Shown: positions 6,694 through 51,605 of the stretch, in pieces
How the letters are laid out: the number at the start of each line of letters is the position of its first letter
Numbering within the stretch: position 1 is the stretch's first letter
NCBI GenBank assembly: GCA_022072085.1
Contig: JAJVII010000003.1
Span: 1 to 64,000 of the forward strand
Source: Phycisphaerae bacterium
GTDB taxonomy: Bacteria > Planctomycetota > Phycisphaerae > JAJVII01
Direction of reading: 5' to 3'
DNA length: 64,000 bases
Notes under the pieces: generated by a model
Database searches by the model: none
Told to the model about the DNA's origin: nothing
Seen by the model: the letters and a program-made list of their open reading frames with translations, nothing else
Program-made: the position numbers and the translations under genes

Positions 6694-6805
6694 GAAGTGT
6701 TGAGTGCTGAGTACTGAGTGCTGAGTGCGGAGTGCTGAGTGCGGAGTGCTGAGTGCGGAGTGCTGAGTGCGGAGTGCTGAGTGCGGAGTGCTGAGTGCGG
6801 AGTGC
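6694..6805 (+). repeat. Heptamer tandem array (16 units)
   Basis: Sixteen consecutive 7-bp units without phase slip: GAAGTGT, then TGAGTGC/GGAGTGC alternating in the later part. The next unit degrades to GGAATCA. It resembles short tandemly repeated repetitive (STRR) heptamers described in cyanobacteria. It lies between the divergent ABC binding-protein gene and the PQQ-like gene. Confidence 0.9.
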
Positions 6806-9648: not shown

Positions 9649-10260
9649 ATGTGTGCCATGTCCGATGAGCCATCCACTCGGCGGGAGTTTCTCGGGTGCG
9701 TCGCCCGGATCAGCGGGGCGACCGCAATCGGCGTGGCGGCCGTCGGGCTGACTGTGCGCGCCGACGCCGACAAGGTCTGGACGATCGACATCCGCACCTG
9801 CGACGGGTGCGAGAAGTTCAACGCGTCGGCCGACGGGCTCAGCCGCTGCGCGACCGAGTGCGTGCTGAAGAAGTCCGCGGTGAAGGTCGTCAACAAGTTC
9901 GACGAGTGCGGCTACTGCCGCATCTGCCCGGGCTACCACGACGTCAACAGCGAGGTGGACGAAGAGGGCCTGCCGGCCGGACGCGTCTGCCCCTACGACG
10001 CGATCGCGCGGCGGCAGGTGGGTCTGGCTGACCCGGCGCTCAAGAAGAACTGGTTCTACGAATACACCATCGACGAATCCAAGTGCACCGGCTGCGGCAA
10101 GTGCATCATCGGCTGTGCGCCGGAGATGGGCAACGGATCGCTCAAGCTCCAGGTGCGGCACAACCTCTGCGTGGACTGCAACGAGTGCGCGATTGCGACG
10201 GCCTGCCCGACCGACGCTTTCGTTCGCGCCCCGATCGACGCCAAACGGCCCGGACGATGA
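9649..10260 (+). CDS. Tat-exported polyferredoxin (4Fe-4S)
   Basis: 203 aa. A twin-arginine signal is visible (STRREFLGCVARIS followed by a hydrophobic stretch), so the folded protein should be exported with its clusters. Cysteine motifs in order are CDGCEKF, CGYCRICPGY, CPYDAIA, CTGCGKCIIGCAP and CVDCNECAIATACP, enough for about four [4Fe-4S] clusters. It resembles periplasmic electron-carrying ferredoxin subunits paired with NapH-type membrane proteins. Start 9649 follows GGGAG at good spacing; ATG 9658 is possible. Its stop overlaps an ATG of the NapH-NuoE fusion gene, supporting direct electron transfer between the two. Confidence 0.82.
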   Translation: MCAMSDEPSTRREFLGCVARISGATAIGVAAVGLTVRADADKVWTIDIRTCDGCEKFNASADGLSRCATECVLKKSAVKVVNKFDECGYCRICPGYHDVNSEVDEEGLPAGRVCPYDAIARRQVGLADPALKKNWFYEYTIDESKCTGCGKCIIGCAPEMGNGSLKLQVRHNLCVDCNECAIATACPTDAFVRAPIDAKRPGR

Positions 10261-10307
10261 ACAGATTCCCCGCCGGCGGGTCCGCCTGCGGTGGGAAGGA
10301 TACGCTG

Positions 10308-12020
10308 GTGACCCGCTCGTTCCGTCTCATCCTCCCGCTCTGCCTGCTGGCAGGCGCCGCGATGCTCGCAACGGCTGCGCCCGTGCGGGCAGAGCCCCCC
10401 AAGACTTTCCGACAGGCCGTCCCCAGCGACGAGGACATCGGCGACGAATACGGCAAGCCGACCGCCGACAATCCCGAGCCGCGGGCCCAGGCGATGCACT
10501 GGGTCGATCTGGCTCTCTTCGTCGGGGCGCTGGTCGCGGCCGCCTGGCTGATCCACCGCAAGCGCAGCCGGGCGTGGCTGATCGCCCTGGTCACCGCGTC
10601 GGTCCTCTACTTCGGCTTCTACCGCTCCGGGTGTGTCTGCCCGATCGGCGCGACGCAGAACGTTCTGCTCTCGCTGATCGACCGCGGTTACACCATCTCG
10701 ATCGTCATCACGCTCATCTTCCTGCTGCCGCTGGCGGCGGCGCTGTTCATGGGCCGCGTCTTCTGCGGCGGGGTGTGCTGGCTGGGCGGTGTGCAGGATC
10801 TGATCCACCGCCGCACCGTCCGCGTGCCGCGCTGGATGGACAAGACGCTGCGCTGGGGGCGGTGGGTCTACCTCGGCCTGGCGGCCTACTGGGTCGTCGG
10901 CGGCGTGAACCTGCTGTTCTTCGACGGCCGCGTGAAGCGCGAATTCGTCATCTGCAAGTTCGACCCCTTCGTGAACCTGTTCCGCTCGGTCAACGTCCAG
11001 GCGGCCCTCAACGGCACGTGGAACCGCGTGTTCGACCTGGCCGGCCCGTGGTGGATGTGGATCGTCACTGGCGTCGTGCTGGGCAGCGGCATATTCATCG
11101 GCCGACCTTACTGCCGCTGGCTCTGCCCCTACGGCGCCCTGCTGGGCGTCTGCTCGCGGGCCGCGCGGCGCGGCGTTACGGTCATGCCCGACGCCTGCTG
11201 TGACTGCAAGCTCTGCGACGACGCCTGCCCCTACGGCGCGATCGAGGAGCACGCCGCGGTCAAGTCGACCTGCCTCGCTTGCAACCGGTGCTATCAGAGT
11301 TGCCCCCTGGAACGGCAGCGCCTTGGCGTGCCGGTCGCGATGCCGGCGCTGGTGCAACTGGGGACGGGGACCGAAGAGACGCGCTCCCTGACGATCGCAT
11401 CGCCGCGTTCAGGCGCGAGCGTCAGCGATCGCGCGGAGCGTGAAGAGACGCCCGTGCCCGCCGTCGCCGACCGCTCCCCCGTCCGCTATCGCCGCCTGGC
11501 GCCGTCGGCGGACCCCGAGGACATCGCCTACGTCGACGCGATGGTCGCCCTGCACGGCCGTTCCGCCGACGCGGGCCTGCCGATCCTCCAGGCCATCCAG
11601 GCCCGCCACGGGTATCTGCCGCACGCGGCGATCGCCCGCGTGGTCGAGTTGACCGACGCGACGATGGCCCAGGTGATTTCGCTGGCCACCTTCTACAACC
11701 GCTTCCGCACCGACCCGGTGGGCAAGCACCTGGTCCGTGTCTGCGTCGGCACGGCCTGCCACGTGGCCGGGGCCCGGCTGGTCGGCGACGCCCTGCGGCG
11801 GCATCTCGGCATCATGGGCGAGGCCGACACCGACGCCCTGCGGCGGTTCACCGTGCAGGAAGTCGCCTGCGTCGGCTGCTGTTCGCTGGCCCCGGTGGTG
11901 CAGGTCGACGAGCACACCTTCGGCCACCGCACCCCCGACAGCGTGGTCAAGGCGATCGATGCGTACGAGCAGGCAGAGAGAGAACCGCGAATGAACGCGA
12001 CTGGACACGAATCGGAGTGA
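10308..12020 (+). CDS. NapH-like membrane polyferredoxin fused to a NuoE domain
   Basis: About 570 aa. A signal-like N-terminus is followed by several membrane helices with CxC/CxxxC motifs (SGCVCPIG, FCGGVCWLGG, YCRWLCPYG) as in NapH/NosR/MauN-type proteins. Two [4Fe-4S] motifs follow (CDCKLCDDACPYG and CLACNRCYQSCP). A linker leads to a C-terminal thioredoxin-like [2Fe-2S] domain of NuoE type: QARHGYLP, FYNRFRT, VCVGTACH and ACVGCCSLAPVV supply the four cysteines. GTG 10308 has a strong GGAAGGA site and gives a clean signal peptide; the ATG at 10257, overlapping the previous stop, is the alternative. The last ~11 residues are encoded by a decamer repeat. The fusion would wire membrane clusters to the next gene's NADH module. 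Confidence 0.83.
   Translation: MTRSFRLILPLCLLAGAAMLATAAPVRAEPPKTFRQAVPSDEDIGDEYGKPTADNPEPRAQAMHWVDLALFVGALVAAAWLIHRKRSRAWLIALVTASVLYFGFYRSGCVCPIGATQNVLLSLIDRGYTISIVITLIFLLPLAAALFMGRVFCGGVCWLGGVQDLIHRRTVRVPRWMDKTLRWGRWVYLGLAAYWVVGGVNLLFFDGRVKREFVICKFDPFVNLFRSVNVQAALNGTWNRVFDLAGPWWMWIVTGVVLGSGIFIGRPYCRWLCPYGALLGVCSRAARRGVTVMPDACCDCKLCDDACPYGAIEEHAAVKSTCLACNRCYQSCPLERQRLGVPVAMPALVQLGTGTEETRSLTIASPRSGASVSDRAEREETPVPAVADRSPVRYRRLAPSADPEDIAYVDAMVALHGRSADAGLPILQAIQARHGYLPHAAIARVVELTDATMAQVISLATFYNRFRTDPVGKHLVRVCVGTACHVAGARLVGDALRRHLGIMGEADTDALRRFTVQEVACVGCCSLAPVVQVDEHTFGHRTPDSVVKAIDAYEQAEREPRMNATGHESE
11985..12014 (+). repeat. Decamer repeat at the 3' end of the NapH-NuoE gene
   Basis: Three 10-bp units (CCGCGAATGA, ACGCGACTGG, ACACGAATCG) inside the last codons of the fusion gene. 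The same units recur at 12431-12464 downstream of the GxxExxY gene and in reverse complement at 12511-12540. Confidence 0.8.
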
Positions 12021-12024
12021 AGGC

Positions 12025-12441
12025 ATGGGGAGCCCCGAAAGTCCGATGCCTTTCAGAGAGGAGGTCTTTCAAATCGTCGGGTGTGCCATTGAAGTGTTAA
12101 ATGGAATAGGGCATGGCCTGACGGAGAAACCATATGAGAATGCGATCGTCGTAGAGTTCCAGACGCGGGGCATACCGTATGCGCAGCAACCCAGATTCCC
12201 TGTTGCATACAAGGGCGTGACCGTTGGAGAGTTCGTGCCGGACCTGATCGCATACAAGCAGGTTGTGGTTGACGCGAAAGTAGTAGACCGCATCGGCGAA
12301 CATGAGCTTGGACAGATGATTAACTACCTGAGAATCACAGGTCTTCCGGTCGGCGTCATCCTGAATTTCAGACGCGCGAGACTGGAATGGAAACGAGTGG
12401 TCCTTGGTCAGGATGGCGATCGCAAAGAGAACAGCGAATGA
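12025..12441 (+). CDS. GxxExxY family protein
   Basis: 138 aa, matching the small GxxExxY family named for its motif, seen here as GHGLTEKPYENA. The rest is also typical: PYAQQPRFPVAYKGVTVGEF, DLIAYKQVVVDAKVVDRI and LGQMINYLRITGLPVGVILNF. The D-x(n)-DAK region resembles a PD-(D/E)XK nuclease core, but the activity is unproven. GGAGTGAAGGC precedes the ATG. The gene is visibly less GC-rich than its neighbours and sits between nuoE- and nuoF-type genes, flanked on both sides by decamer repeats. This looks like an insertion into the redox operon. Its last residues are also encoded by repeat sequence. Confidence 0.85.
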   Translation: MGSPESPMPFREEVFQIVGCAIEVLNGIGHGLTEKPYENAIVVEFQTRGIPYAQQPRFPVAYKGVTVGEFVPDLIAYKQVVVDAKVVDRIGEHELGQMINYLRITGLPVGVILNFRRARLEWKRVVLGQDGDRKENSE

Positions 12442-12464
12442 ACGCGAATGGACACGACTGGGAC
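12431..12464 (+). repeat. Decamer repeat downstream of the GxxExxY gene
   Basis: Units ACAGCGAATG, AACGCGAATG, GACACGACTG and start of GGACGCGAGC at 10-bp period. The GxxExxY stop codon is formed by the first GAATGA. It matches the array at 11985-12014. Confidence 0.8.
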
Positions 12465-12510
12465 GCGAGCGATAGGTGCGGGGCGCGGGCGCGCGATCCG
12501 CGTCTTCTCT

Positions 12511-12540
12511 CATTCGCGTCCATTTGCGTTCATTCGCGGT
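12511..12540 (-). repeat. Inverted decamer array upstream of the NuoF-like gene
   Basis: CATTCGCGTC, CATTTGCGTT and CATTCGCGGT are the reverse complement of the decamers at 11985 and 12431. About 45 bp separates it from the forward array, so a hairpin could form between the GxxExxY gene and the NuoF-like gene. Confidence 0.8.
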
Positions 12541-12571
12541 TCGTCTTTCCCCGGCGGGACGGGAGGCGTCC

Positions 12572-14458
12572 ATGACCCGGCCACCTGTTGAGATTCGCCT
12601 GGGGCTGGGGTCGTGCTGCGTGGCCAGCGGCAGCCGCGACGTCTATGACGCCGTCGAGCGGACGCTGGGGGCGATGCGGGCCACGGTCACGCTGCGGCAG
12701 GCCGGCTGCGTGGGCATCTGCCACCGCGTGCCCCTGCTGGAGATCATCGAGCCCGGCTGCGAGCCGGTGATGTACGGCAACGTCACGCCCGACGCGGTGC
12801 CGGCGATCCTCAAGCGTCACGTCGAGCCGCAGGGGTTCGGCGGCCGCATGGGCTACTGGGTCCGCCGCGGGTGGTCGCTGCTGACGCGGGACGCGGCCTG
12901 GGGCCGCCCGGGCGAGTTTGTCGTCGACGCCGACGCGGGCCCGGCGGGCGCGTTCTTCGCGCCGCAGATGCGCATCACCACCGAGGCCTGCGGGCGGATG
13001 GATCCCACTGACATCAACGAATACCGCATGCACGACGGCTACGAGGCCCTCCGCCGTGCGGTCCAGGGCATGAAGCCGTCCGACGTGGTCGAGACGATCC
13101 TCGCGTCGCAACTCCGCGGCCGGGGCGGCGCTGGCTTCCCCACCGGCAAGAAGTGGCAGGTCGTCGCCTCCCAGCCGCCGGGCCTGCGCTACGTCATCTG
13201 CAACGGCGACGAGGGCGATCCCGGCGCGTTCATGGACCGCATGCTGCTGGAGGCCTACCCGCATCGCATCCTGGAAGGGGCGGCCATCGCGGCCTACGCC
13301 GTCGGCGCCGAGGAAGTAATCTTCTACATCCGCCAGGAATACCCGCTCGCGGTCCAGCGCGTAACCGAGGCCATCCGCCAGGCGACGGCCGCCGGCGTGC
13401 TGGGCGAGAGCGTCATGGGCACGCCCGTCGCGATCCGCGCTTCGGTGCGCCAGGGCAGCGGTGCGTTCGTCTGCGGCGAGGAGACCGCGCTGATCGCCAG
13501 CATCGAGGGCCGACGCGGCAACCCGCGGCTGCGCCCGCCGTTCCCGGCAGTCTCAGGCTACCTCGGCCGCCCGACCTGCGTGAACAACGTCGAGACGCTG
13601 GGGACCGTGCCGTGGATCGTCCGCCACGGCGCCGAGGCGTTCGCCGCCATCGGCACGCCGTCGAGCAAGGGGACCAAGGTCTTCTCGCTCACCGGCAAGG
13701 TGGCTCGCGGCGGGCTGATCGAGGTGCCGATGGGCATGACCATCCGCCAGATCGTCGAGGAGGTCGGCGGCGGCATCAAGGGCGATCGCGGTTTCAAGTT
13801 CAAGGCCGTTCAGATCGGCGGGCCGAGCGGCGGGTGCATCCCGGCGGAACTGGCCGACACGCCCGTGGACTACGAGGCCCTGACGCGGCTGGGCGCGATC
13901 ATGGGCAGTGGCGGGCTGGTCGTGCTCGACGAGAGCGACTGCATGGTGGACATCGCCCGCTACTTCCTCCAGTTCACGCAGAACGAGAGCTGCGGCAAGT
14001 GCACGTTCTGCCGCATCGGGACCAAGCGGATGCTCGAAATCCTCAACCGGCTCGTCGAGGGCCGCGGCCGCCGCGAGGACCTGGACGAACTGGAGACGTT
14101 GGCTGGGCAGATCACGAAATCGAGCCTCTGCGGTCTCGGCCAGACGGCCCCCAACCCCGTGCTAACCACGTTGAAATATTTCCGCAGTGAGTATGAGGCC
14201 CACATCGACGGGCGCTGCCCAGCCCGCAAGTGCCCGGCGCTGATCCGTTACGAGGTGAACGACAAGTGCATCGGCTGCACCAACTGCGCCCAGGTCTGCC
14301 CGGCCGACGCGATCGAGCCGCGGCCTTACGCATTGCATTGGATCGACCCGGCCAAGTGCACGCGGTGCGACATGTGCGTCCCGGTCTGCCCGACCGAGGC
14401 GATCGACATCGTAACGGGCAAGGCAAGTGTCGAGTTGCGAATTTCAAGTGTCGAGTGA
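12572..14458 (+). CDS. NuoF/HydB-like NADH-binding flavoprotein with ferredoxin tail
   Basis: 628-aa cytoplasmic NADH dehydrogenase module. Residues ~1-100 form a thioredoxin-like [2Fe-2S] domain (GLGSCCVASG and GCVGICHRVP). Next is the NADH/FMN domain with LRGRGGAGFPTGKKW and CNGDEGDPGAFMDR, an SLBB region, and the [4Fe-4S] site ESCGKCTFCRIGT. The tail has two [4Fe-4S] ferredoxin motifs, CIGCTNCAQVCP and CTRCDMCVPVCP. This order matches HydB/HndC-type NuoF proteins of bifurcating and NAD-linked enzymes. GGGAGG precedes ATG 12572. The final 12 codons are a heptamer array. It should accept electrons from, or donate to, the NuoE domain of the upstream fusion. Confidence 0.9.
   Translation: MTRPPVEIRLGLGSCCVASGSRDVYDAVERTLGAMRATVTLRQAGCVGICHRVPLLEIIEPGCEPVMYGNVTPDAVPAILKRHVEPQGFGGRMGYWVRRGWSLLTRDAAWGRPGEFVVDADAGPAGAFFAPQMRITTEACGRMDPTDINEYRMHDGYEALRRAVQGMKPSDVVETILASQLRGRGGAGFPTGKKWQVVASQPPGLRYVICNGDEGDPGAFMDRMLLEAYPHRILEGAAIAAYAVGAEEVIFYIRQEYPLAVQRVTEAIRQATAAGVLGESVMGTPVAIRASVRQGSGAFVCGEETALIASIEGRRGNPRLRPPFPAVSGYLGRPTCVNNVETLGTVPWIVRHGAEAFAAIGTPSSKGTKVFSLTGKVARGGLIEVPMGMTIRQIVEEVGGGIKGDRGFKFKAVQIGGPSGGCIPAELADTPVDYEALTRLGAIMGSGGLVVLDESDCMVDIARYFLQFTQNESCGKCTFCRIGTKRMLEILNRLVEGRGRREDLDELETLAGQITKSSLCGLGQTAPNPVLTTLKYFRSEYEAHIDGRCPARKCPALIRYEVNDKCIGCTNCAQVCPADAIEPRPYALHWIDPAKCTRCDMCVPVCPTEAIDIVTGKASVELRISSVE
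14424..14458 (+). repeat. Heptamer array forming the 3' end of the NuoF-like gene
   Basis: Five 7-bp units in register: CAAGTGT, CGAGTTG, CGAATTT, CAAGTGT, CGAGTGA. The last supplies the TGA stop. They encode a C-terminal tail (SVELRISSVE) not expected in the family. Confidence 0.8.
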
Positions 14459-19234: not shown

Positions 19235-19317
19235 GCGGCGCTCCGTAGGGGTGTGGATGTCAGGCCACGGATTGTATGCCGCGGGCGGCTTGTTGTGAAT
19301 CGCCGGCTGCGGTCTAA

Positions 19318-19594
19318 GAGCGTGTATGAAAGCCTACGCGGGTCGCGACGACGGGTATTGCGGTCGCGGCCAAGGAGTCGAGGAGGAGTCGATACGAGAT
19401 GGAGTATCGTCGACGACGAGCGACGCCGGCCGCGACCGCAAGACCCGCCGTCCCGGCGGGTTGGGCCGCAAAGGGCCCGTCTGCGGCGTCGCCGCTCCTG
19501 GACGATACTTCTTTCGTATCGACTGCGTCGCGGCTCCTTGCATCCGGGCCCTTTGCGGCCCAACGCGATCCCGTGTAGGCTTTCATACACGCTC
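19318..19594. mobile_element. MITE-like element with 20-bp perfect terminal inverted repeats
   Basis: The left end GAGCGTGTATGAAAGCCTAC (19318-19337) is perfectly inverted at 19575-19594, and similarity continues imperfectly about 10 bp inward. Inside is a second nested inverted repeat with TTGGGCCGCAAAGGGCCCG near 19460-19478 matched at about 19546-19564. The 277-bp element has no plausible gene, and no clear target-site duplication is visible. It behaves like a miniature inverted-repeat element or a large folded RNA. It lies between the M16 gene and the next plus-strand gene. Confidence 0.7.
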
Positions 19595-19626
19595 GAATGA
19601 CCGCATTCCAACCGGAGGAAACGACC

Positions 19627-27514: not shown

Positions 27515-27640
27515 CGCGCCTCCGTCGGGCCATGGCCCAAAGGGGCCATTCTGCCCGCTTCGTCCCGCTGCTGCAAGAGCGTGATTGCCCGCGACCGCGG
27601 CGGGGCGTCCGGGTTACTATCACTGCAAGACGGGGAAGAG

Positions 27641-27670
27641 CCACAGATGGACACAGATGCGCACGGATGT
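27641..27670 (+). repeat. Decamer repeat upstream of the transglutaminase/HEAT gene
   Basis: Three 10-bp units: CCACAGATGG, ACACAGATGC, GCACGGATGT. It lies in the divergent intergenic region, 54 bp before the gene start. Confidence 0.7.
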
Positions 27671-51570: not shown

Positions 51571-51605
51571 GAAGTGCTGAGTGCTGAGTGCTGAGTGCTG
51601 AGTGA
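51571..51605 (+). repeat. Heptamer array after the HEAT/Fn3 gene
   Basis: Five units in register: GAAGTGC, TGAGTGC, TGAGTGC, TGAGTGC, TGAGTGA. Same consensus as the array at 6694. It begins directly after the TAA stop and runs into the possible start of the next small gene. Confidence 0.9.

Follow-up and report, generated by a model that had tools for sequence, protein, structure and literature searches.

Why a small GxxExxY gene lies between the NuoE-like and NuoF-like genes of a redox operon, where the two should be adjacent, is the question raised by this locus. An earlier note on the 64,000-nucleotide stretch of Phycisphaerae DNA analyzed here (the window) had described a low-GC gene bracketed by identical decamer repeats and suggested a mobile cassette that uses the repeats as its ends. 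The coordinates and architecture given there are right: the gene lies between two forward arrays, with an inverted array beyond, and splits nuoE from nuoF (Table 1). The NuoE-like and NuoF-like identities are backed by PF01257, PF01512, and TIGR01959, and the two genes are neighbors in those class relatives that have both. The GC content of the GxxExxY gene, 0.53, is below that of the whole window (0.69) and of the nuoE part (0.72). The repeats are present as placed, but the two forward copies are near-identical rather than identical, agreeing at 26 of 29 positions and differing at 3. As also noted before, repeat sequence supplies both the codons that close the NuoE-like gene (...REPRMNATGHESE*) and the stop of GxxExxY, a TGA within GCGAATGAAC of the second array. 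The GxxExxY gene starts 4 bases past the NapH/NuoE-like stop and ends 130 bases ahead of the NuoF-like gene. The NapH-like and NuoE-like domains share one open frame and likewise run on together in a genome of the same family; in other class relatives, they are ~2–3 kb apart.

Table 1. Features of the GxxExxY locus and a related array in the window
Feature	Position	Strand	Remark
Upstream operon gene with NapH-like and NuoE-like (2Fe-2S thioredoxin-like) domains	10083..12020	+	Array sequence forms the 3' end
Forward decamer array 1 (GCGAATGAAC GCGACTGGAC ACGAATCGG)	11984..12015	+	Last NuoE-like codons; GxxExxY start codon follows
GxxExxY gene, 138 aa (PF13366/TIGR04256, PD-(D/E)XK family)	12025..12441	+	Short C-terminal-loop (LEWKR) type
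Forward decamer array 2 (GCGAATGAAC GCGAATGGAC ACGACTGGG)	12434..12462	+	Contains the GxxExxY stop codon
Hairpin spacer between array 2 and the inverted array	12463..12508		
Inverted decamer array (AACCGCGAATGAACGCAAATGGACGCGAAT on the minus strand)	12509..12541	-	
Downstream operon gene, NuoF-like flavoprotein subunit	12572..14458	+	NuoE neighbor in relatives
Lone CACAGATG-type array	27639..27668	+	Dialect of another GxxExxY gene (L002) of the same genome

The 18-mer GCGAATGRACNCGAATNG has 8 matches in the window at three or fewer mismatches, where 1.3 are expected, and no shuffle reached 8; six of the matches are the arrays around the GxxExxY gene. This excess, together with the shifted controls and the genome array counts given below, rules out a chance origin of the repeats. 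Array 2 and the inverted array fold together strongly, into a hairpin of -74.9 kcal/mol (z = -5.75; 0 of 200 shuffles). The commonest layout at GxxExxY loci is forward–gene–inverted, and the forward–gene–forward–spacer–inverted order in the window is best read as a GxxExxY unit that abuts or shares a gene-less hairpin.

The protein in the window matches TIGR04256 (E = 1.6e-34, 118.7 bits versus a cut-off of 35) and PF13366 (E = 4.4e-32, 111.3 bits versus a cut-off of 22), and its family residues are found in the motifs GLTEKPY and DAK. Glu35, Asp75, Lys87, Gln99, and Tyr103 are invariant in the family, and Glu85 is near-invariant (Asp in the window protein). Compared with the RecB motifs, these residues presumably fit a RecB/Cas4-like nuclease. 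An AlphaFold2 model of a family member, L047, has a pLDDT of 92.7, and its best structural matches, which are weak, are Cas4 (Foldseek E = 0.0045) and lambda exonuclease (E = 0.026). L047 also matches the Cas4 profile at 8e-4; the window protein matches neither this profile nor any PADLOC anti-phage defence model, and a sequence search of the PDB gave no match. The PD-(D/E)XK look ascribed to GxxExxY in the earlier note is supported by the profiles, the conserved residues, and the predicted fold. Carriage by phages or plasmids was rejected, as a consensus-like GIKR-type query matched none of 50,697 phage records and only 8 of 72,556 plasmid records.

The comparison with related genomes that had been suggested indicates that GxxExxY is not conserved at this position. 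The operon (NHL, Fe-S, NapH, NuoE, NuoF, and GltD-like) is conserved across the class, and no insertion was found at any NuoE–NuoF junction read in relatives, including that of the same-family genome G001. Two further loci, named from our reading of the flanking proteins and taken to be groEL|dnaJ and ruvA|ruvB, are also variably occupied. The groEL|dnaJ gap of a second genus holds a GxxExxY unit in two species and a short ordinary spacer in three, and ruvA|ruvB of a third genus holds a unit in two species and is empty in one; the flanks of occupied and empty sites are 83–95% identical at both loci. No array is present at the empty nuoE|nuoF, groEL|dnaJ, and ruvA|ruvB sites, few as they are, and gene and arrays therefore come or go together. 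With these three empty loci and the inverted flanking arrays found across phyla (see below), the mobile cassette is well supported. No target duplication of gene-bearing copies could be read at the compared sites because the intergenic sequence has diverged. The GxxExxY orthologues that are retained are under purifying selection, with a dN/dS of 0.05–0.12 where synonymous sites are unsaturated. At the groEL|dnaJ gap, two related species carry other small genes (L186 and L189), one of them macro-domain-like by eye, and the gap is possibly a cargo hotspot. Other GxxExxY units between operon genes lie at radA|FAD protein of Bacteroides and fabD|fabG of Sphingomonas (L182 and L183), and the flanks of L159 and L163 were read, presumably correctly, as mutA|mutB of Bacteroidaceae and a map neighbor in Flavobacterium. 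These operon cases are striking, but the neighbors are co-oriented in 60% versus 48% when all loci are considered, and a strong rule of insertion only along transcription was dropped.

Inverted ~10-bp arrays stand on either side of each of the six GxxExxY genes in this genome. Their dialects differ: GCGAATG, CACAGATG, CACGAAGG, CACGGATT (two genes), and CACAGAG. The earlier note had expected GCGAATGAAC-type decamers at GxxExxY genes genome-wide and would have counted their absence from other copies against its reading. The exact decamer is indeed missing from the other copies, whereas the architecture is present at every one; GCGAATGAAC is not a general end, as every GxxExxY lineage has its own dialect. 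For a wider survey, loci were picked by protein similarity alone, the upstream flank was aligned to the reverse complement of the downstream flank, and a score of at least 30 was counted. Inverted arrays flank 54 of 72 GxxExxY loci in named genomes of many phyla, archaea included, compared with 2 of 510 shifted controls. The count is 167 of 215 when all sets are pooled, recognizable arrays being missing at about a fifth of the loci. The family occurs in 27 of 41 class relatives and in 108 of the 246 genomes of the phylum that were sampled. The array units recur mostly every 9–10 bp, roughly one DNA turn, and the variable length and sequence of the linkers would fit repeated binding sites better than slippage. 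Frames upstream of many GxxExxY domains (L046, L047, L054, and others) translate array DNA (...NRRERRER..., ...PQRRGARRGE...), and annotated GxxExxY N-termini may be array sequence.

The array dialect follows the protein clade. The consensus of the unit is CRCNVA, with the next base mostly G or T. Setting unclassifiable arms aside, the arrays number 75 G and 0 T for proteins whose C-terminal loop is the longer one (...KDGIKR), and 0 G and 46 T for those with the short loop (...LEYKR, the type in the window). On the protein tree, this letter changes 4 times, compared with 42.6 times when shuffled, and none of 500 shuffles was as low; arrays and gene are thus co-inherited. Repeated independent coevolution of arrays and protein was rejected, since four dialect changes give too few independent pairs.

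Arrays are also abundant without a gene. Elsewhere in the genome, the window's dialect recurs in about 25 gene-less units with the order forward–spacer–inverted. Sampling of 0.86 Mb of the genome gave 191 arrays versus 66 in shuffled sequence; the sampled arrays form 54 pairs, mostly 29–210 bp apart, in which the dialects of resident genes dominate. The window's dialect accounts for 36 of 52 strict arrays in its own genome versus 0 of 25 in the same-family G001, whose GxxExxY genes have other dialects. Across 41 genomes, gene number correlates with array number (rho = 0.66, p = 3e-6, an optimistic p value as kinship is uncorrected), and a reversed-pattern control is near zero. The 14 genomes without a GxxExxY gene have 0–8 arrays each, and arrays without a gene are found in G008 and in G024 (83% complete). 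Concentric palindromes are common in this genome (C68:5270–5570, C68:15410–15665, C2:22590–26190, and C5:8390–13460, within L419, L397, and L402). The order of their shells is constant, with CACAGAG outermost, CGCAGATT next, and CGCGAATG innermost, and they may have arisen either by repeated insertion into hairpin loops or by the spread of a composite. Separately, positions 19314–19595 of the window hold a MITE-like palindromic repeat of ~275 bp with the ends GCGTGTATGAAAGCCTACGC and GTGTAGGCTTTCATACACGC, which is 95% identical over 242 bp to C1:148640–148881 of the same genome.

An unrelated protein family has a similar architecture. The four-helix-bundle/S23 (TIGR02436) genes of the class are flanked by inverted arrays at 25 of 28 testable loci, compared with 1 of 112 controls. 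The period of their arrays is mostly 7–8 bp, versus ~10 bp for GxxExxY (loci L037–L044 and L353–L381). AGTGCTG arrays of 7-bp period lie at 6696–6805 and 51573–51604 of the window with no four-helix-bundle gene nearby; AGTGCTG is the unit that bounds a four-helix-bundle gene (L040) of the same genome. The intervening sequence in Coxiella 23S rRNA encodes a four-helix-bundle protein and has already been called a selfish element (PMC4990558).

Here, we propose, with slightly better than even confidence, that the locus holds a widespread selfish element consisting of a nuclease gene and palindromic arrays, which is RAYT/REPIN-like in its working and yet no member of that group. We infer that GxxExxY acts on the arrays as transposition ends. 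The protein would bind the arrays cognate to it, either folded into a hairpin or as a series of sites along one face of the DNA, and would cut as a RecB/Cas4-like nuclease, and the array-bounded DNA would thereby be copied or inserted into intergenic gaps. The gene-less hairpins would be non-autonomous and depend on the protein in trans for their movement, as REPINs depend on RAYT proteins. The copy in the window would then be a gene unit beside one gene-less hairpin, inserted between nuoE and nuoF. Other enzymes may take part in the movement, because one array family lies inside a TA-flanked MITE-like repeat. A broader proposal joins the GxxExxY and four-helix-bundle units into a new class of mobile elements of bacteria and archaea, whose end period is specific to the protein and whose protein moves the unit and mobilizes gene-less hairpins; we regard this extension as tentative and somewhat doubtful.

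Homing offers another explanation of the same-dialect gene-less hairpins, although an unlikely one. The hairpins would spread by other means, and GxxExxY would be a parasite that cuts its cognate hairpin and enters the loop, the gene-less hairpins being its empty targets and the gene-bearing ones its occupied targets. The commonness of such hairpins, the agreement of dialect with protein clade, as for a target-specific enzyme, and the frequent nesting of palindromes in the loops of other palindromes are consistent with this explanation. However, among the orthologous pairs there was none with a hairpin at the empty site, and the three empty loci, a small number of sites, are free of arrays. 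One related site (L091 in G020) has a lone array between NuoF and the GltD-like gene.

Alternatively, but with a lower probability, an IS630/Tc1-mariner-type transposase moves the hairpins, which would then be MITEs, and the GxxExxY genes are captured passengers. One gene-less CACAGAG hairpin (~163 bp, L422–L450) has about 28–30 dispersed copies, the ends of which are exact, TA-CTGAATCCTG...CAGGTCTCAA-TA, with sharp outer terminal repeats. TA at both ends and sharp terminal repeats are expected of a MITE of this type. The copies often lie within a GCGCTCCCTTACGGTCGCGG palindrome, in two orientations of a palindromic target, and a composite hairpin has the same ends as the TA-flanked CACAGAG unit; a search of the 0.86-Mb sample found no uninterrupted palindromic target of the unit. 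Another transposase may thus move some of the hairpins. Passenger capture, however, leaves unexplained why ~10-bp arrays accompany GxxExxY across phyla and 7–8-bp arrays the four-helix-bundle family, and why dialect is linked to protein clade. Moreover, ends of the TA type are not seen around the GxxExxY gene in the window.

It is improbable that the arrays are control or processing sites, such as operators through which the nuclease regulates itself or hairpins of the operon's RNA that are processed as in 23S rRNA intervening sequences, rather than ends for mobility. The purifying selection on the gene, the supply of start- and stop-proximal sequence by the arrays, and the strong hairpins would suit such a role. 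Two facts argue against it: gene-less copies are numerous at distant positions, and gene and arrays are present or absent jointly at orthologous sites. The co-orientation of neighbors given above is weak for an RNA-level rule. Finally, that GxxExxY is an ancestral component of the redox operon to which repeats were added later is hardly credible and was rejected: although G011, G019, and G028 carry a GxxExxY gene in the same operon, it is a different gene with other arrays at another junction, between NuoF and the GltD-like gene, the three proteins are from other branches and no nearer each other than to copies elsewhere, the gene in the window belongs to another C-terminal class, and most relatives, including the same family, have no GxxExxY gene in the operon.

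The open literature that we searched gave no description of an association between GxxExxY and arrays. GxxExxY genes are common yet have no assigned function, and their own arrays offer a testable one, that of an array-specific nuclease of a selfish element. The four-helix-bundle parallel, with a period of its own, suggests that one-gene elements with iterated ends reflect a general principle.

The selfish element proposed here shares with RAYT/REPIN systems a small gene for a nuclease with palindromic DNA on its flanks, many gene-less intergenic copies in the genome, a dialect common to gene and copies, and a ratio of few genes to many palindromes. RAYT (TnpA-REP) proteins, however, are HUH Y1 transposase-like, whereas GxxExxY is of the PD-(D/E)XK type and hence falls outside the HUH enzymes. 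RAYT/REPIN ends consist of one REP hairpin, those of GxxExxY of iterated ~10-bp units, and, unlike RAYT/REPIN, several GxxExxY genes and dialects coexist in one genome. IS630/Tc1-mariner MITEs are also short non-coding palindromic repeats with inverted ends, and one gene-less family here is TA-ended, but a DDE transposase is missing from the gene-bearing units, and no TA duplication was seen at the copy in the window. A homing endonuclease gene differs in that the empty sites here are not the uncut recognition sequence, the few loci read, three in all, being array-free. The conserved Asp, (D/E)xK, and QxxxY residues are shared with Cas4, lambda exonuclease, and RecB; in contrast to these enzymes, GxxExxY has only ~125 amino acids and no CRISPR or recombination neighbors. 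The Coxiella intervening sequence (PMC4990558) is likewise a small ORF in a hairpin-forming selfish insertion, and the S23 family is bounded here by inverted 7–8-bp arrays. GxxExxY, by contrast, is another protein family, and its site in the window is an mRNA operon (nuoE|nuoF), not an rRNA. The TAACTGA heptamers of Beggiatoaceae (PMC4679880) and the cyanobacterial STRR are short-period intergenic arrays of obscure origin as well, but in their descriptions they are direct repeats, and no gene family is linked to them. The period of the Beggiatoaceae heptamers, 7, is that of four-helix-bundle units, and the GxxExxY arrays suggest an origin for a large pool of bacterial and archaeal intergenic repeats of short period.
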